From: Cytophagales bacterium
Lineage (GTDB): Bacteria > Bacteroidota > Bacteroidia > Cytophagales > Flammeovirgaceae
NCBI GenBank assembly: GCA_025056215.1
Contig: JANWWC010000002.1
Coordinates: 299,052-363,051 of the forward strand
Direction of reading: 5' to 3'
Length of the DNA: 64,000 nucleotides
Below, in pieces: positions 17,117 to 35,093 of this stretch. The notes beneath the pieces were generated by a model that was not told the DNA's origin, searched no databases, and was given only the letters and a program-made list of their open reading frames with translations. Position numbers and translations under genes: made by a program. Numbering within the stretch: position 1 is the stretch's first letter; every line of letters starts with the position of its first letter.

Positions 17117-17138
17117 AAGCGCTTAACAGCGCTTTTTT
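17117..17138 (+). terminator. Intrinsic terminator of the 66-aa protein gene
   Basis: Stem AAGCGCT/AGCGCTT, loop TAAC, followed by T4 and a further T-rich run, starting 16 nt after the stop codon. Confidence 0.75.
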
Positions 17139-18663
17139 ATTTTTCTTTCAATAAATATTCAGCATAAAAAGAATCGTTTTTCCCGATATATTGCCTTAAA
17201 AACCATTCATCATACACTTCGGTAAGTTTTTCAAAAACTCGGCTCTGTTGAATAGGAACGCTTGTGACAAGAGTAGGCTCTAAAATAGGTCTAAACCAGG
17301 AAATAAGTACCGTTCTTATGGCGTCGCTACCGCCCATCAAGAGCAAAAAAGCTAACACGCGAATACGCAAATCTTTCCACAAAGAACGCTCAGAAAGATG
17401 TCGAGCCATCTGCCACATGAGCAGAAACATAAATGGAACGTACATATTAGCCAACGAGTCGTTGTTAGTACCGATGCGATAATGTGGCAAAAGTAACAAC
17501 ATAATTAGCATAAAATACCATAGGTGTTTATGAACCGATTTTACAACGTGCTGATGAATACAAGTTGCGTATGCGCCAAATTTGATTGTTACAAAAACAA
17601 GATAAATCCATATGTAAGTTGGAAAAGGAATTGCTTTCCAAGTCCAATCGCCTGCATCTGGAGAGTTAAGTGGGTAATGCGCTTTGTACATGAAAAAAAA
17701 TACTAAAGCTAAAACAGGAGCTACGAATAAATTTTGAAAACTTATTATAGTATTATTCCTATGTGCTATCAGATAAAACAATCCTAACAGAGCTATTGAA
17801 ACACTAGGAAATGGAGACCACAAAAGCATAATGCCAACTAAAAACGCTACATTGCTTAACTTTTTGTTCTGAATGACTTCATAAAGAAACAAACTCATAG
17901 CAAGCCAAGTGCCAATTGCATGATGAGGAACCCAAGTAAGAGCGATATAATTTCCATTATATCGAAATACCTTGTCAGCTAAAAACACATCCCATCCCGT
18001 GCGGAGAATGTGATATAAAAAGTCCCAGTCTGCCTGCCCTATCAGAATTTTGTAGCACACGTATCCGTAGATAAGAATAGGTTCAAGCCCATTAAACAAA
18101 AAAAATACTATGACAGGAATCCAAAAATCTTTACCAGAAAGCAAAGCGAACCATAAAAGTACTACGGTAAACCCCAAAAATGTCCATATTAAAGCAATAT
18201 CGTCTGCCCAACGAATTCCTATCCACTTAGCAAATAACGCTATAGGAAGTTTATAAGCCATATAATAATTAAAATGCGCTGATGTTTCGGCAATACCTGG
18301 CAAGTTGTAAAAATGAATGGGCCATTCTCTTTCAATAAGCGTACGAAAAATCGCATTGATTTTAATATAATCGTGCCTTTGAAAGAAGTATCCTCCTACT
18401 CCTGCCCACAAAGTCAATAAAAATGAAATAGCTACTAACAGCCCTATCGTTCTTAAAGCAACTTTTTCATGCCCTTCGAACAAAACCAATAAACGATTTT
18501 GCTGAACTATTGTATAAAAGGAAAATCCTAACAGCCCTATGATAGGAATTCCTACAAAAGAATTTATCCAAGTAAGAAAGAAAATCAGATGAGGAAGTAT
18601 CAAGTATGCATACGAAACTATTCTCAAAAAATTGATAATTTGTTGCTTGGAGATGCTACTCAT
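17137..18663 (-). CDS. Polytopic membrane protein, possibly GT-C glycosyltransferase-like
   Basis: A 508-residue protein with roughly 10-13 hydrophobic segments and a short hydrophilic C-terminus. I do not recognise a named family. The first long extracytoplasmic loop (about residues 95-130) contains RHDYIKINAIFRTLIEREWP, a layout similar to the acceptor loop of some GT-C membrane glycosyltransferases, but no clear DxD or ExD metal motif is evident. It starts 20 nt after the SMC-like gene stops and has no promoter of its own, so the two are probably cotranscribed. That link is unexplained, and a surface-polysaccharide role is only a guess. Confidence 0.6.
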   Translation of the reverse strand: MSSISKQQIINFLRIVSYAYLILPHLIFFLTWINSFVGIPIIGLLGFSFYTIVQQNRLLVLFEGHEKVALRTIGLLVAISFLLTLWAGVGGYFFQRHDYIKINAIFRTLIEREWPIHFYNLPGIAETSAHFNYYMAYKLPIALFAKWIGIRWADDIALIWTFLGFTVVLLWFALLSGKDFWIPVIVFFLFNGLEPILIYGYVCYKILIGQADWDFLYHILRTGWDVFLADKVFRYNGNYIALTWVPHHAIGTWLAMSLFLYEVIQNKKLSNVAFLVGIMLLWSPFPSVSIALLGLFYLIAHRNNTIISFQNLFVAPVLALVFFFMYKAHYPLNSPDAGDWTWKAIPFPTYIWIYLVFVTIKFGAYATCIHQHVVKSVHKHLWYFMLIMLLLLPHYRIGTNNDSLANMYVPFMFLLMWQMARHLSERSLWKDLRIRVLAFLLLMGGSDAIRTVLISWFRPILEPTLVTSVPIQQSRVFEKLTEVYDEWFLRQYIGKNDSFYAEYLLKEK

Positions 18664-18683
18664 AATCTTCTTAAATTCAGACT

Positions 18684-21600
18684 CTATACAATAACACTGG
18701 TTAGTAGCGGACGTACAAGTACATTCCCTGAACTTTCTTTTTCGAGCTTATACGTATAGTTATAGTAAGTTTCTAACTTGCTTTCATTAGGCAATCCGTT
18801 TACCAAATAGATATGTCTTTTTTGAGCAAAGCCGATAAGCTCTCTAAGATAAGTAGCCGAAAGTTTTCCCACTTCGTCGATCATTGCATGAATCATGAAA
18901 GGCTCTTGTTGTGAATTGCGAACAGATTCTTTCAAGAAAATATAAATCAACGTGATGTAGATAATAGATTTTACCAAAATATCAGTGCCTTCAGAGCCTA
19001 TATCGTGTAAGCGTTCGGTCCAATCAATCACATTTTTTCCTTCTTTGATTTTGAATTGAAGTTTGAATAAATCTTTTAAACTAATGTATTCCTGCTGAGG
19101 CTCTTTTTCAAGGTGATTTTGAAGAGCTTCTAAAAGCTCCACAGATTTGCGGTCCAGGTCGCTGTGCGAAGTATTATCTGTAAATATTGAATCTTTTCTC
19201 AAATAATAAGAATTCTCTGCATGAAATTTAGCAATTTTCTGTAAAATTTTAAGTATCGGACTTTCTGCTTCTTGCACTCTTACGTCGATGTACTCAATAA
19301 GTTTCGCATCTTCAAATTCTGCTTTCTTGAAGTCACGCTTCATTTCGGCAATTTTATCATCAATCTTGTCGAGCTGTCTTATCAACTCAGTTACTTTCAT
19401 AGCAATCGTATCGAGAAGCATATTTCTGTTTTGAGCGATTTCTTCTATAGAGGCATTAATGCGTCCTTCGTTGATAAAGTTTTCGAGCTCTTCAGCAAAT
19501 CGCTCATAATCTCGTGCAGAGGCATTTCTATCGATTCGAAAGCCGAAATGATTTCCTTCCCTGAAACGCCCTACATAATCGCGAATATATCCTTCAAACA
19601 GACTTCTTTCTTTTAAGATTTCTTTTTCATTGTTATCAATATTCTTACAAAGGATGCTAATTTCTTCGTCAACAGCGCGCATTGAAGCACTCTCGATACG
19701 CGCTTCAAGATGCGGGTGTAATTCTGGGCGAACCTTTTCATAGTAGCTAAGCCCTTCATTGCATTTGATGAGCTCTTTTTCCAATTCAACTCGCTTGTCA
19801 TAACATTCTTTCTGAAGAGCTATTAGATGTTTTCGCTCTGTTTTAAAAGTTTCTTCTAAAGTACAAAGTTCTTGTTCGAGCTTGGCGCGTTCTAATTTAA
19901 ACTCTTCGATCCTGTCGAGATACTCTTCTTTGTCGTTCTGATACTTGAAAACTACTTTTTCGATATTTCGCAATTCGTGAAGTTGTTGCTGAACTTCTGC
20001 GATTCGCTTATCAGCGTTTTCGATATCCTTCGAATCAATACCTTTTTCTTCGAGAGCTTTTTTATACTGAAGTTTAATATCGTTTTCTTCTTTGTGAAAA
20101 GCAGCATTTTGTATGCGTCGTCGTTCTTCTAATTTAGCGAGTTTATCTGTGTGAGCATGTTGCAACTGATTGATTTTTTGAGAAAGAGAAGTCCGAAGTG
20201 TTTCTAAGGTGATGTTCAGATTTTGAGTAACTTCTTGAATTTTTTGTTCTGTTTTAGAAATCTCAATTTGTTGAACTGAAATTTTTTGTTTACAAATTTC
20301 AAGTTGCTTATGAATTTCTTCGTCGGCTTTTGCCAAATAATCGGCAAGTGAGAGCTCAATTTCTTGTTTGCGATTGTGAGCTTGCCCAATTTGATAGCGA
20401 AGTTGATGCAGATTCTTTTCTAATTCATTTTTTTGAGTTGCAAACTTTGTTTTTTCTTTTTTGATTTTTTCCTTCAACTCTTCTTCAAAAGTATGAAGCT
20501 GGCGAACCAACTCTTGAATTTCTTTTTGGATTATTTGCTTTTCTTGCTCATAATCCGCCACTTTTTTAACACTTATCGGAACATTCGTCAGATTCAGCTT
20601 TACGCCATAAAAGTTTTGAAAAGCAGTAGCCTTCAGTTCAGGATTCAAATCAGAGCGAAATAGAATTTCTTCATTCACTACTTTTCCGATAGTTTCAGTC
20701 CACTTAGGATATTCTCTTTCTAAGAACCCAAAAAAAGTCTCGTCTTTTATTTGAAGGCGATGTTTGATGCGATTAAGTTGTTGTTCGGAAGCTTCTATCT
20801 TAGCATATTGATTCTTTTGAAATGTTTCGTATTCTTTTTCGAGCTGAGCATCAATTTTTTTGCCTTCTTCCATTAAGCGCTGAAGTTCTTTTTCGCCACT
20901 CAAAAAATTCAACTGATTTTGAATAAGTTGTTTTTCGAGAGCAGATAGTTCATCGCGAAGAGCTTGAATTTCAGCTTTAAAAAAATCTCGCCTTTTAATA
21001 TTGAGCATTTCATTTTCAAGCAAGCGGATTGTACCTTTAGCTCGTTCGATACTTACTTTGAGTTCTGCAATTTGAGCACTACATTTTTCTCTGGCTGTAT
21101 TTTCTTCTTTTGCATAGAATTCTTTTTGGAGTTGTATTTCTTCACGCAATTGTTTTTCAGCAAGAGCTACTTCTTCTCGCAACTCAAGTTCGAATTCTTT
21201 TTTTTCGTTGCGCAAACGCGAAAGACGATTGTCAAACTGGCTTTGAATATCTTGATAGGCAGCTGTCAAGTCATTGCGATCGGCATAGAGTTGAGAAAGT
21301 TTTCGCTCTAAATCCGGTTTTTGAGCAAATAGTTCTAATATTTGTTCGATATTCATTCTTTCGTACTCGCGTCGTTTGCTCTCAGCCTCCCGGAGCTTTG
21401 ACTTGTAAATGCCGAGTTGCTCGCGTATTCCGTCTGTGCTGACTTTGTACTGGCTTTCTAAAGCATTGAGCTGAAGTTGATACTCATTAATTTGATGATC
21501 TAATTCTGCAATTTGCGCTTCTAGCTGCATTTTTTTTGATGCAGTATATTTAAGAGCGGCTCCTAAACGGTCGGCGAATTCTACTTCTTGTGCTTTGAGT

Positions 21601-22361
21601 TGTTGAAGCAGTTGATATTTTTCTTGAATAAGCTGCCGACGCTGCTCATTTTCAGGTTTCTTGTAATCGGTTAAATCTCTGAATTTGCCTGAAAATTGCT
21701 TAAGATGATTGCGCAATAAAGAAAGCTCTATTTCAGTACCGACATCAGAAACCGCATTCGCAATAAATTCTTTCACAAAATCGGCTTTTATTTCGGCGTG
21801 AGCGCTGTTAAAAATATCGCTTATTGCACGCGGAATATTATCAAATCGTCCATTTGTATAGAGCAGCGCATATTTTTTAAATTCTCTTTCTTGCACAGCA
21901 CCGTACAAAATTTCGCGATAGCGCTTAAATGAGTCGATAGGTTTTGTAAACTCGATTTGAGGAACTGCAGTAATGAACCTTTTTTGTACTTCAGTAATCG
22001 GCAAAACGTTCTCTTTTTCATCGAGATAGTAAGACTTATCAAAAGGAGCATTGACAAATCTGTACTTGATACTATCACTTTTATATACCCAAATGTGAAA
22101 GGCATTTACTCCATCACTCACTTCGTAAATAATGTACGAATTAGGATATTGAAAATAGTACTCTTCAAAGGGCTTTTTAGAGCGTGAAATTCCTAGACGC
22201 TGAGTGTTCGCATTGTAAAAAAACAAAATCACGCGTAAAATAGTAGTCTTGCCCAAATTATTTTTGCCTATAAAACAAGTATTTCCATCTAACTTAATAT
22301 TCGCATATTCCACTTGAGCAACATTGAAAAGCACAACGCGCGAAAGAGACTTTGCTTTCAT
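18684..22361 (-). CDS. SMC/MukB-like ATPase, DUF3584-type
   Basis: A 1225-residue protein with an SMC/Rad50 layout: an N-terminal ATPase lobe with Walker A GKNNLGKTT (residues 32-40), a very long coiled coil (about 225-1010) broken by a globular hinge-like region near residues 525-585, and a C-terminal lobe with signature-like GSEGTDILVKS and Walker B MIHAMIDE (Asp/Glu near 1162-1163), then a VNGLPN segment. This resembles MukB/MksB/JetC and DUF3584 proteins more than SMC or Rad50 (no LSGGE, no CxxC hook). Such ATPases act in chromosome organisation or plasmid defence with kleisin and KITE partners; none is encoded nearby. It is followed by a membrane protein gene. A dyad overlaps its promoter. 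Confidence 0.85.
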   Translation of the reverse strand: MKAKSLSRVVLFNVAQVEYANIKLDGNTCFIGKNNLGKTTILRVILFFYNANTQRLGISRSKKPFEEYYFQYPNSYIIYEVSDGVNAFHIWVYKSDSIKYRFVNAPFDKSYYLDEKENVLPITEVQKRFITAVPQIEFTKPIDSFKRYREILYGAVQEREFKKYALLYTNGRFDNIPRAISDIFNSAHAEIKADFVKEFIANAVSDVGTEIELSLLRNHLKQFSGKFRDLTDYKKPENEQRRQLIQEKYQLLQQLKAQEVEFADRLGAALKYTASKKMQLEAQIAELDHQINEYQLQLNALESQYKVSTDGIREQLGIYKSKLREAESKRREYERMNIEQILELFAQKPDLERKLSQLYADRNDLTAAYQDIQSQFDNRLSRLRNEKKEFELELREEVALAEKQLREEIQLQKEFYAKEENTAREKCSAQIAELKVSIERAKGTIRLLENEMLNIKRRDFFKAEIQALRDELSALEKQLIQNQLNFLSGEKELQRLMEEGKKIDAQLEKEYETFQKNQYAKIEASEQQLNRIKHRLQIKDETFFGFLEREYPKWTETIGKVVNEEILFRSDLNPELKATAFQNFYGVKLNLTNVPISVKKVADYEQEKQIIQKEIQELVRQLHTFEEELKEKIKKEKTKFATQKNELEKNLHQLRYQIGQAHNRKQEIELSLADYLAKADEEIHKQLEICKQKISVQQIEISKTEQKIQEVTQNLNITLETLRTSLSQKINQLQHAHTDKLAKLEERRRIQNAAFHKEENDIKLQYKKALEEKGIDSKDIENADKRIAEVQQQLHELRNIEKVVFKYQNDKEEYLDRIEEFKLERAKLEQELCTLEETFKTERKHLIALQKECYDKRVELEKELIKCNEGLSYYEKVRPELHPHLEARIESASMRAVDEEISILCKNIDNNEKEILKERSLFEGYIRDYVGRFREGNHFGFRIDRNASARDYERFAEELENFINEGRINASIEEIAQNRNMLLDTIAMKVTELIRQLDKIDDKIAEMKRDFKKAEFEDAKLIEYIDVRVQEAESPILKILQKIAKFHAENSYYLRKDSIFTDNTSHSDLDRKSVELLEALQNHLEKEPQQEYISLKDLFKLQFKIKEGKNVIDWTERLHDIGSEGTDILVKSIIYITLIYIFLKESVRNSQQEPFMIHAMIDEVGKLSATYLRELIGFAQKRHIYLVNGLPNESKLETYYNYTYKLEKESSGNVLVRPLLTSVIV

Positions 22362-22381
22362 AGTTTGTTATTTTGAAAGCA

Positions 22382-22415
22382 CAAATTTATACAGGAATCT
22401 TATCTGTATAAATTT
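22382..22415 (-). promoter_or_regulatory. Promoter and operator-like dyad of the SMC-like gene
   Basis: A perfect 12-bp inverted repeat (AAATTTATACAG at 22383-22394 and CTGTATAAATTT at 22404-22415) is separated by 9 nt. The gene-proximal arm contains the minus-strand -7 box TAAATTTG, an exact TAnnTTTG match, about 20 nt before the ATG. A dimeric repressor bound here would cover the promoter. The ACAG...CTGT order is the inverse of a proteobacterial LexA box. No regulator gene is adjacent. Confidence 0.55.
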
Positions 22416-22667: not shown

Positions 22668-23276
22668 TTATATTTTAAGTAATACACAAAGTGTAATTGC
22701 AGGTGAAAGAGTTTGAACTCGCAATTGAATACTTGCTTCACCGCTTTGCAAAGAAGATGTGAGTTCTATAGAAGGAAGAGTAAATTCGATGCCCCATTTG
22801 CTCGGATAAAGACCTACGCCAGGAGCAACGCCAATTCCAAAAGCGCTTACAGATTTAGGCTTATTGGCATTCTTAGGATATTGTGCCACAGAGAATGAAA
22901 ACCCTATGTTAGCCTCTTCCCCAAGAGCCACTTTCAGCTTGCCTAAAGCTAAGCTCCAGTTTGGTAATAACACCCTAAAATACCTAACTCCGTAGTACCT
23001 CCTTTTTATATTTTCTGCCACAGCAGTTGTGTATTGCAAGCGAGCTCCAATAGCCAGATTATCGCTCAAAAAAAGTAAGTTCTACCTAGTGCAAAATACC
23101 AAGTTTCCAGTTGTAGTGCTATTTGCATTATAGGCTTAGTAGTAACAGAAGAATAGCCTGCAGTACCCACAGTAAAAATTCTCCTTGCTCCTGACCCTTG
23201 TTCTATTCTGTGCAAAAGCATCGCAAACGAATCTCAAAAGTGCTGCAAAAGAAAAAATGATTTTCTTTATTTTTAA
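22668..23276 (-). pseudogene. Degenerate outer-membrane beta-barrel protein gene
   Basis: Three reading-frame pieces line up as one protein. A signal peptide (KIKKIIFSFAALL...DAFAQ) starts at a TTA where ATG would be expected. The frame then shifts near 23200 into a barrel segment (GARRIFTVGTAGYSSV...WYFALGRTYF), which ends in a stop. A second shift in a T7 run (23068-23074, minus strand) gives the remaining 133 residues (LSDNLAIGARLQYTTAV...). The alternating hydrophobic strands and the 'G-R-x-Y-F-L-S-D-N-L-A-I-G' turn are typical of small Bacteroidota outer-membrane barrels (PorT/OmpW-like). Lost start plus two frameshifts argue for a true pseudogene. Confidence 0.65.
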
Positions 23277-30848: not shown

Positions 30849-33800
30849 TCAGGGTGACTCATTATTCTTAAGCGCCATTAAAAGTGTATAAGCGCCCTTC
30901 AAAACCACATTCTGAGTGTCGAGAAAAGGCACGTTTTGCCACGATAAAGCTGTAAAATCTTTTTCGTTATGGATTACTTTGATTTCTTTCATTTGAAATG
31001 TATTAGGGCTTATTTGATAAAAAATCTGATCTTTCCCATCAAAACGTACAACCGCCTCAGAGGGAACAGCGTAGTATTCTCCTTTCTGAATCGGTACCTC
31101 CACATTCATATACATTCCAGGAAGCAAAGTAGATTCGTATCTTTCGAAATGACAATGTACAGGAAATGTTCTTTCTGAGGTAATCGACATTGCAATCTGA
31201 ATCACGCGACAACGATATTTTTTTTCAGGTGCGTAATTGGTATACGCCCATATTTGCTGACCTATGTCAAGTTTATTGATATCTTTTTCCAAAACATGAA
31301 CTACCAAATGAATATCTTCTGTATTGACAATTTTAAAAATTACGTCTGATGGGTTTGCGTATTTGCCCACATTTACATTCACTTCTGTAATATATCCATT
31401 AGAAGGCGATAAAATCGGAATTGAGGCAGTAAGATTATTTTCCGAAAGTGTTTGATAACGCACTCCTAACAGTCGCAACTTTTCTTGTAAAGATTTTTGC
31501 AGCGCCTTTTGAGCCAAATAGCTTGCTTTAGCTTGCTGGAAATCCTTTTTTCCGCCGATCTGCTCTTGAAAAAGCTTTTCTTGGCGCAAATACTCTTCTT
31601 CAATGGCAAACAACTGAGCCGTTACTACTAAATACTCCTGTTGTAAAGTAATATAATCTAAATCTTCTAAAACAGCTAAAGTATCTCCTTTTTTTACTTT
31701 TGCGCCAACAATTGGTCGAATACTTTTTACATATCCTCCTATGGGAACGCTAATAGAAATCAAATTTTGAGGTGGTACTTCTATTATGCCGTTCATTTGC
31801 AAAACAGCATTTATAGGCTTGCGAGAAATGTTTCCTACTACAATCCCTGCCCGCTCTATTTGTACCTGCGAAAGTGTAACTATGTCAGAAAAATGCGATT
31901 CTGAAGGTTCTTCGTTAGACTTATGAGTATTTTTTGTACAAGCCGAACTTAATAGAATTACTACGATCAGACCGAGAACATTCATGTGAGAAGATATTTT
32001 AAAAAGTTTTTTTTGAAAAAGTGTGTACAACAAAGGGAGAATAAAAAGAGTAAGAAGTGTAGATGTTACCAACCCTCCAATGACTACTGTCGCTAAGGGG
32101 CGCTGAACTTCAGCGCCTGCTCCTTTGCTAAGCGCCATCGGCAAAAACCCTAAAGAAGCCACTAACGCTGTCATCAAAACGGGGCGAAGCCTTGAAGTAG
32201 CACCGTATAAAACTCTATACGACACCGTTTGAAGGTGTTTAATTTGTTGAAAAGAAGCAATCAATACAATTCCATTGAGAACAGCTACTCCAAAAAGCGC
32301 AATAAAACCAACTCCTGCACTAATACTAAAAGGCATCTGACGCACTCCCAAAGAAAAAATACCTCCAATTGCAGCAAAAGGAATAGCAGTATAAATCAAT
32401 ACACTATATCTAAAAGATTGAAAAGCGCTATACAACAAGATAAAAATCAAAAGCAAAGCAATAGGTACAGCCACAACCAACCGAGCTTTAGCCGCTTGCA
32501 GATTTTCAAAATTTCCGCCGTACTCGATTGTATATCCTTCTGGAAGTGGAAGTTCTTTCTCTACAAGTGATATTAAATCTTTCAATATACTTTCTGTATC
32601 GCGGTTTCTTACATTAAACCCTACAAAAACACGCCTTTGCGTATTCTCGTGCTGAATTTGGTTAGCACTTTCCTTAAATGAGATTTGAGCCACTTGATAA
32701 AGTGGAACCTGCACTCCTATAGGTGTAGGAATGAGCAATTTTTGAATATCCTCGAAGTTCTTGCGCGCCGAATCTGCTAATCTGACTACTATTTCAAATC
32801 GCTTTTCACCTTCGTAAAACCAACCTACTTGCCTTCCAGCAAATGCAGTATTGACAATATGATTCACTTTCTGAACAGACAATCTGTAGTGAGCTAACAT
32901 AGCGCGATCTATCGAAATAACTACCTGTGGAATACCTGCTACTGGCTCTACATACACATCGGTAGCTCCTTCTACTCTGCGAACAAGTTCTGATAAACGC
33001 TCAGAAAGGCGAACTAGAGTATCTAAGTTTGTTCCGAAAATCTTACAAACAATGTCTTGCCGCGCACCTGTCAAGAGTTCATTAAAGCGCATTTGCACAG
33101 GAAATTGAAATCCTACAGTAATCCCTGGAATTTCTGCCAAACACTGGCTCATTTTTTTTTCCAACTCCGCAAAAGTTCGAGCGCTCTCCCACTTAGATTT
33201 CTCTTTGAGAATTACCATCATATCCGCAGCGTTCATGGGCATAGGATCGATCGGAATTTCTCCACTGCCAATTTTAGTAACTACCTTTTCTACTTCTGGA
33301 AACCTTTCTTTCAGGATACGCGCAGCCTGTTGCGTAGCTTGAATCGTAGTATTCAAGTTGCTGCCAGCCAATACTTTCGTGTCTACGGCGAAATCGCCTT
33401 CTTCTAAAACAGGAATAAACTCTCCTCCTAAATTCAGTGCAATCCAAAAAGCCCAAGTTCCCACAATTAAAACTCCTACTAATACATACTTTCCAAACCG
33501 AAGGGTCTTTAAAAGCAACAGTCGATAAAATCTTCGAAGAGAATCGAAAAAACTATCAGCAAACGAAGTATGAGCAGCATTAGGCAGAAACCAAGCACAC
33601 ATCATAGGAACATAAGTAAAAGACAGTAAAAAGGCTCCTATCAACGCAAAAACAACTGTTTGCGCCATAGGCTTAAACATTTTTCCTTCAATACCGTGAA
33701 GTGCAAAAATGGGCAAGTACACAATTAGAATGATGAGTTGCCCAAAAACAGCGCTTTTCATAATAGAAGTAGCTACTTCTACTACCAATTCGTTTTTAGA

Positions 33801-35093
33801 AAGTTGATGAGAAAGTACACCTGAATGGGAAAGGCGATACATTACTGCTTCTACAATAATCACAGCTCCATCGACAATCAAACCAAAATCTAACGCACCT
33901 AAACTCATCAAATTGCCACTCACCCCAAACAAATTCATCATACAGATCGCAAATAGCATCGCCAATGGAATAACAGAACCCACTAGAATACCCGCTCTCC
34001 AATTCCCTAAGAACAGTACTAGCACCAGCACTACAATGAGTGCACCTTCTATAAGATTCGTCTCAACGGTTCGAATAGCTTGATGGACCATTTTTGTCCT
34101 ATCTAAAAACGGCTCTATGATTACCCCTTCGGGAAGCATTTTTTGAATCTGCTCTATGCGCTTTTTAACCTTTTTTACTACCTGACTACTATTTTCTCCT
34201 TTGAGCATGAGCACAATTCCTCCTGCTACTTCTCCTTCGTCGTTGTAACAAAGAGCTCCATAACGTATGGCATGACTAATTTTAATTTCTGCTACATCTC
34301 TTAAAAACAACGGCATTTCTCGATTAGGAACAGGAATAACGATTTTCTCAATATCTGCTACCGAGGTTACTAAACCTTCTGTGCGAACATAAAGAGCTAT
34401 TGCATTTTTTTCGATGTAAGCTCCTCCTGTGTTTTCGTTGTTACTTTCGAGTGCATCGAGTACATCTTGCACGCTAATTCCCAAAGCGTGTAATTTCTGA
34501 GGAAACAAAGAAATTTGGTACTGTTTGACCTTTCCACCAAAGCTACTTACATCTGCTACTCCTTCTACTCCCAAAAGTTGGCGACGCACTATCCAATCCT
34601 GAAGTGTGCGAAGCGTAATAATGTCATACTGATTCTCATAACCCTTTTTAGGTTTGATGACATATTGATAAATTTCTCCTAATCCTGTAGTAATAGGCGC
34701 CAACTCGGGCTTTCCAACTTGAGAAGGAATCTGAGATTGAATTTGCTGTAAACGCTCGCTTACCTGCTGCCTTGCCCAATAAATATCAATATCATCTTCA
34801 AACACAATTGTTATTAACGACAAACCAAAGCGAGAAAAACTTCGCAATTCTATTACATGAGGAATGTTGCGAACTGCAAATTCAATAGGATAAGTTACCA
34901 AACGCTCGATATCTTCTGCCCCAAAAAAAGGAGCTGTAGTAATAATTTGAACCTGATTGTTCGTAATATCTGGAACAGCATCAATCGGTAATTTTGCAAG
35001 CTGGTAACTTCCATATATAAGAAGAACCGCCACCAATAAACCGATGACTAATTTGTTCCTTACGGAAAAATAAATCATGTAAGAGAGTATCAT
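30849..35093 (-). CDS. Heavy-metal efflux RND pump fused in frame to its membrane-fusion adaptor (CzcA-CzcB)
   Basis: A single 1414-residue frame. Residues 1-1036 are a complete HME-type RND transporter of the CzcA/CusA group: 12 membrane helices, the proton-relay signature LDFGLIVDGAVIIVE (D402, D408, E415), porter-domain TGARQD...KIFG, and a normal C-terminus. Residue 1037 is a methionine opening what looks like the lipoprotein signal of a CzcB-type adaptor (MNVLGLIVVILLSSAC), followed by its beta-barrel, lipoyl and alpha-hairpin domains (378 residues, full length). Zn/Co/Cd export is more likely than Cu by the TGxRQD motif. The junction has an A8 run; with A7 the pump would stop at a TGA overlapping the adaptor ATG. 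The outer-membrane channel gene (czcC) is absent. Confidence 0.85.
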   Translation of the reverse strand: MILSYMIYFSVRNKLVIGLLVAVLLIYGSYQLAKLPIDAVPDITNNQVQIITTAPFFGAEDIERLVTYPIEFAVRNIPHVIELRSFSRFGLSLITIVFEDDIDIYWARQQVSERLQQIQSQIPSQVGKPELAPITTGLGEIYQYVIKPKKGYENQYDIITLRTLQDWIVRRQLLGVEGVADVSSFGGKVKQYQISLFPQKLHALGISVQDVLDALESNNENTGGAYIEKNAIALYVRTEGLVTSVADIEKIVIPVPNREMPLFLRDVAEIKISHAIRYGALCYNDEGEVAGGIVLMLKGENSSQVVKKVKKRIEQIQKMLPEGVIIEPFLDRTKMVHQAIRTVETNLIEGALIVVLVLVLFLGNWRAGILVGSVIPLAMLFAICMMNLFGVSGNLMSLGALDFGLIVDGAVIIVEAVMYRLSHSGVLSHQLSKNELVVEVATSIMKSAVFGQLIILIVYLPIFALHGIEGKMFKPMAQTVVFALIGAFLLSFTYVPMMCAWFLPNAAHTSFADSFFDSLRRFYRLLLLKTLRFGKYVLVGVLIVGTWAFWIALNLGGEFIPVLEEGDFAVDTKVLAGSNLNTTIQATQQAARILKERFPEVEKVVTKIGSGEIPIDPMPMNAADMMVILKEKSKWESARTFAELEKKMSQCLAEIPGITVGFQFPVQMRFNELLTGARQDIVCKIFGTNLDTLVRLSERLSELVRRVEGATDVYVEPVAGIPQVVISIDRAMLAHYRLSVQKVNHIVNTAFAGRQVGWFYEGEKRFEIVVRLADSARKNFEDIQKLLIPTPIGVQVPLYQVAQISFKESANQIQHENTQRRVFVGFNVRNRDTESILKDLISLVEKELPLPEGYTIEYGGNFENLQAAKARLVVAVPIALLLIFILLYSAFQSFRYSVLIYTAIPFAAIGGIFSLGVRQMPFSISAGVGFIALFGVAVLNGIVLIASFQQIKHLQTVSYRVLYGATSRLRPVLMTALVASLGFLPMALSKGAGAEVQRPLATVVIGGLVTSTLLTLFILPLLYTLFQKKLFKISSHMNVLGLIVVILLSSACTKNTHKSNEEPSESHFSDIVTLSQVQIERAGIVVGNISRKPINAVLQMNGIIEVPPQNLISISVPIGGYVKSIRPIVGAKVKKGDTLAVLEDLDYITLQQEYLVVTAQLFAIEEEYLRQEKLFQEQIGGKKDFQQAKASYLAQKALQKSLQEKLRLLGVRYQTLSENNLTASIPILSPSNGYITEVNVNVGKYANPSDVIFKIVNTEDIHLVVHVLEKDINKLDIGQQIWAYTNYAPEKKYRCRVIQIAMSITSERTFPVHCHFERYESTLLPGMYMNVEVPIQKGEYYAVPSEAVVRFDGKDQIFYQISPNTFQMKEIKVIHNEKDFTALSWQNVPFLDTQNVVLKGAYTLLMALKNNESP
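32007..32014 (-). other. A8 homopolymer at the pump-adaptor junction
   Basis: On the coding strand the run reads CAA AAA AAA CTT in the fused frame. Deleting one A gives Q-K-N-F-L-K-Y-L-L-T-stop, where TGA overlaps the ATG at 31985 as ATGA. A -1 shift instead ends at a TAA three codons on. So the run length decides between fusion, coupled separate genes, and plain termination. A_AAA_AAA is a known slippery sequence type. Confidence 0.8.

Follow-up and report, generated by a model that had tools for sequence, protein, structure and literature searches.

An SMC-like ATPase gene that lies without kleisin or KITE genes beside it, and directly ahead of a gene for a membrane protein, raises the question of what its product works with. 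We consider this for a 64,000-nucleotide stretch of a Cytophagales genome (the window; C10:299052-363051), whose assembly comprises 2.83 Mb in 17 contigs and is 99.5% complete. The ATPase is very probably MksB, the motor of a nuclease-free MksBEF condensin whose MksF gene lies 45 kb from mksB and whose MksE gene is on another contig. MksBEF is a known kind of condensin, and in this respect the finding is largely ordinary; what is unusual is the scattered layout of its genes.

The mksB reading frame (C10:317735-321412) is intact and encodes an SMC-like ATPase of 1,225 residues. As Pfam DUF3584 spans residues 21-1208 with E = 3.4e-55, it is not a chance ORF. The description in the first-pass annotation of a 1,225-aa SMC-type ATPase with the motifs GKNNLGKTT and MIHAMIDE and no CxxC is confirmed. 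The 508-aa membrane protein that it placed 20 nt behind the ATPase gene is likewise present as an ORF (Table 1); the stretch that it delimited, 17137-22415, contains both genes, although its upper end lies 54 nt beyond the mksB start codon.

Table 1. Features of the ATPase gene and its neighbour, in window coordinates.
Feature	Position	Strand	Basis
mksB, SMC-like ATPase	18684..22361	-	DUF3584; 36-37% full-length identity to f16 MksB
Walker A GKNNLGKTT, MksB residues 32-40	22242..22268	-	G32, G37, K38 and T40 invariant in 22 MksB
Hinge-like break between two coiled-coil arms, ~residues 540-600	20562..20744	-	Composition break
GSEGTD motif, residues 1122-1127, at the ABC signature position	18981..18998	-	Alignment of 22 MksB
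Walker B MIHAMIDE, residues 1156-1163	18873..18896	-	D1162 and E1163 invariant in 22 MksB
508-aa membrane protein, predicted GT-C fold	17137..18663	-	Predicted structure; no linkage elsewhere

Beyond the Walker motifs, the 22 aligned MksB proteins share five invariant residues in the hinge-like stretch (L547, W554, G559, L567 and G586), which probably represents the MksB hinge, and five in the GSEGTD motif (G1122, S1123, G1125, T1126 and D1127), whose position suggests the role of the ABC signature. The Walker B region aligns with the C-terminal head of MukB (E = 0.002), and the head architecture resembles that of E. coli MukBEF, whereas the ATPase is shorter (1,225 versus 1,486 aa) and MukE and MukF cannot be aligned by sequence. 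A CxxC zinc hook of the Rad50/SbcC type is absent from MksB, whose seven cysteines are isolated, and the canonical Smc model TIGR02168 scores it at 22.3 bits, below the cut-off of 567. Sequence searches of the PDB with the MksB protein and with MksB, MksF and MksE profiles returned coiled-coil or chance matches only, and a promoter and terminator scan did no better than on shuffled sequences. A 133-aa ORF (window 22668-23069, minus strand) separates mksB from the divergently oriented gene upstream of it; this ORF resembles an outer-membrane barrel's C-terminal end that lacks its start, and it has no Pfam match.

Partner genes elsewhere in the genome

The first-pass annotation saw neither a kleisin nor a KITE gene, which is right within the window: a search of all six frames of its 64 kb with family profiles for the Bacteroidota kleisin and MksE gave best E values of 0.39 and 3, and remnants of mksE or mksF turned up neither next to mksB nor in the rest of the window. 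The kleisin gene, mksF, starts 3.3 kb past the window end on the same contig (C10:366334-367548), and mksE lies on a different contig of this genome (C9:231 kb). Each of mksB, mksE and mksF was found once genome-wide. Since all three lie well inside large contigs (1,026 kb for C9 and 508 kb for C10), contig ends do not explain why they are apart.

MksE is recognised directly, reaching 118 bits against PF21980 (cut-off 27). MksF has no match in Pfam or NCBIfam; it was found with a single relative borne on plasmid pPP3 as query (E = 2.8e-28) and matches its family profile at E = 2e-123, its own sequence being among the 19 in that profile. In an orthologue test it reached E values down to 2e-97 with operon proteins of the f16 genomes, which supply the best relatives of all three subunits: identity to proteins from their intact F-E-B operons is 39-44% for MksF and 42-44% for MksE (for MksB, see Table 1). 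Most of the named relatives that the searches returned are Bacteroidota, and several belong to the Cytophagales. Profile alignment (hhalign) of MksF gave E = 0.6 with E. coli MukF and E = 0.003 (probability 11%) with proteobacterial proteins in the MksF position, and that of the MksE profile with E. coli MukE was uninformative. Orthology to an operon member, position and size together suggest that MksF is a kleisin. Both partner genes have regulators ahead of them: mksE on C9 (region L040 6686-9822) and mksF on C10 (region L039 8335-11407) each come directly after co-oriented genes for a histidine kinase and a response regulator of the LuxR type, a separate pair in each case, and no such regulator was seen ahead of either gene in the relatives examined.

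The usual arrangement, typical of MksBEF though no defining trait, is compact. In a sample of 291 genomes of the order we found 29 mksB genes in 25 genomes; mksE adjoins mksB in 26 of the 29 and the full F-E-B block is present in 24, the window genome being an exception. The operon of Bacteroidota plasmid relatives likewise encodes a protein of ~400 aa, one of ~180 aa that is MksE (PF21980), and the ATPase. The F-E-B block is also intact in the f16 genomes, though in one of them (G195; L059 6528-10215) mksB is frameshifted and split into two overlapping frames, as in a pseudogene or through a sequencing error.

Trees of B, E and F recover the same three groups. The first unites the window genome with f16 and the genome G093 (support 99 for B, 98/97 for E and 100/99 for F), the second comprises the nuclease-free sets of family f1, f15 and plasmid pPP3, and the third holds the nuclease-associated sets, including one Parabacteroides set without an adjoining nuclease. 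This congruence is our chief reason for thinking that the dispersed genes still specify a single complex. As the partners are in the same genome and all three trees agree, we regard the system as a complete but scattered MksBEF. The ATPase is therefore not the orphan it was first taken for, and of the suggestion of a reduced complex with its partners elsewhere, the second half was correct but the first was not.

Nucleases and the place among known condensins

A close parallel is offered by P. aeruginosa, where Smc and MksBEF are both present and MksBEF helps to organise and segregate the chromosome (PMC7485682, PMC10586767). The window genome likewise combines a nuclease-free set of SMC-like ATPase, kleisin and KITE with canonical Smc (TIGR02168, 1022.8 bits) and ScpA; it differs from P. 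aeruginosa in having the genes at three loci, in its very divergent sequences and in a kleisin that Pfam does not recognise. From its relatives and the lack of a detected nuclease we infer a chromosomal role. Two MksB chains would dimerise at the hinge, and their ATPase heads would be closed by MksF, to which MksE would be bound; ATP hydrolysis would then power the loading of DNA and the formation of chromosomal loops, and MksBEF would serve as a second condensin beside Smc-ScpAB, as is reported for P. aeruginosa (PMC7485682).

The same three core subunits also make up Wadjet (JetABCD, also MksBEFG or EptABCD), and a plasmid-defence system of this type, with its nuclease encoded elsewhere or of an unrecognised family, has to be weighed. 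A fourth gene, DUF7281 or JetD-like, accompanies eight sets in the order sample, in every case directly downstream of mksB; such genes occur in sister clades of the same family, on plasmids and in the outgroup, and this very genome shows that subunits can lie far apart. However, neither DUF7281 nor JetD_C, the domains used to look for a TOPRIM-type nuclease like JetD or MksG, is found in the window genome at E ≤ 1, in searches that recovered the positive controls. No nuclease gene lies beside mksB in f16, two f16 genomes searched for DUF7281 have none, and the PADLOC JetA-C models give no significant match, that of JetC to the window MksB being E = 0.01 at best. We thus consider a Wadjet-type system unlikely here, while noting that a nuclease from some family outside DUF7281 and JetD_C could be encoded in the genome.

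On one view, MksBEF arose from Wadjet by nuclease loss (PMC10586767). Our MksB tree, for which proteobacterial sets with a nuclease served as the outgroup, would allow such a loss, though it does not resolve the deep branching of its three groups. Four-gene sets also occur on plasmids of Proteobacteria and Persicobacter (L018, L022, L088, L089 and L090), where MksB and a protein in the MksE position are joined by a third protein and by one that resembles a DUF7281 nuclease. For the two sets compared with the PADLOC JetA-D models (L018 and L022), matches were weak or absent.

A motor that works by itself or with other proteins, while the kleisin and KITE genes have some different purpose, has a precedent in B. 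burgdorferi, for which MksB without MksE and MksF has been reported and proposed to act so (PMC10406323). There too mksB is without neighbouring partners and coexists with canonical Smc, and the three mks genes of the window genome are indeed unlinked. Unlike B. burgdorferi, however, the window genome has partners elsewhere and a single gene for each subunit, and the three trees show the agreement that co-evolution of the subunits would produce, which makes a true orphan very improbable.

The neighbouring membrane protein

The membrane protein gene follows mksB on the same strand and encodes many hydrophobic segments. Its product has no sequence family match, but a model built from seven sequences (pLDDT 70.5, pTM 0.80) is helical, and the first 43 structural matches of this model are all to proteins of the GT-C fold, with Z scores from 14.6 (ALG12) to 7.7 before a drop to 3.7. 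Foldseek alone places PglB, AftA and ArnT among its first four matches, with weak E values (best E = 0.02). The fold as modelled is thus that of GT-C glycosyltransferases such as ArnT, ALG12, AftA and PglB, from which the protein differs in lacking a sequence family match. D98, invariant in 11 of 11 relatives, would fit a catalytic or metal-binding aspartate. The protein is most likely a GT-C glycosyltransferase, predicted from its modelled structure, that stands outside the condensin.

Homologues occur in 29 of the 291 genomes of the order sample, some with several copies (four in tandem in G002), and 27 of these 29 are without mksB (E ≤ 1e-20); five of the 29 belong to the family and yielded no mksB. 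The only other genome with both genes (G250) has them on different contigs, and the genomes of the closest mksB relatives, f16, contain no homologue at E ≤ 1e-3. Since the homologues are mostly in genomes without mksB, the data do not support linkage of the two genes. This lack of linkage, combined with kleisin and KITE genes at other places in the genome, is the outcome that the first-pass annotation had named as refuting its reading. Its idea of a distinct membrane-linked system, which might tether or transport DNA, could draw on the shared strand and the 20-nt gap, by which co-transcription appears likely, but it is hardly credible given the predicted GT-C fold, the distribution of the homologues and the usual soluble partners of the ATPase, encoded elsewhere in the same genome. 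The pairing most likely reflects a chance arrangement of genes at this locus, in which the membrane gene is possibly co-transcribed with mksB.

Elsewhere in the window, a 1,414-aa ORF (30849-35093, minus strand) encodes an RND efflux pump fused in frame to a CusB-like adaptor (ACR_tran at residues 6-1026, HlyD_D23 at residues 1094-1328); where the two parts meet there is a lipobox-like stretch.

Scattered genes and compact operons

The scattered state requires four changes on the MksB tree. The genes lie at three loci in the window genome and in genus g43 of f15, mksF lies ~155 kb away in G017, and in G093 it is on another contig. The mks loci of all four lineages are nuclease-free; genome-wide searches for DUF7281 covered the window genome, G113 and G062 among the scattered, and only G113 exceeded the cut-off, in a separate intact set. 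Conversely, none of the nuclease-bearing sets is scattered, and all stay in one operon. Given the small sample and the relatedness of the lineages, this pattern is an observation rather than a tested rule.

Scattered mks genes could be regulated apart. It is conceivable, if improbable, that a mobile defence operon became a housekeeping condensin by losing its nuclease and that its genes then scattered, with mksE and mksF in this genome behind separate regulators so that assembly would come under two signals. That nuclease-free sets may be scattered whereas nuclease-bearing ones are compact fits the view of an origin of MksBEF from Wadjet by nuclease loss (PMC10586767).

More generally, the absence of kleisin and KITE genes beside an SMC gene does not by itself make it an orphan. 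Its partners may be encoded on other contigs, as in Bacteroidota, where PADLOC and NCBIfam models fail to detect them and Pfam likewise fails to detect the kleisin. Missing partners or condensins have been claimed for Borrelia MksB (PMC10406323) and for gut Bacteroidetes (PMC10197239); the B, E and F profiles built here offer a means of re-examining these claims.
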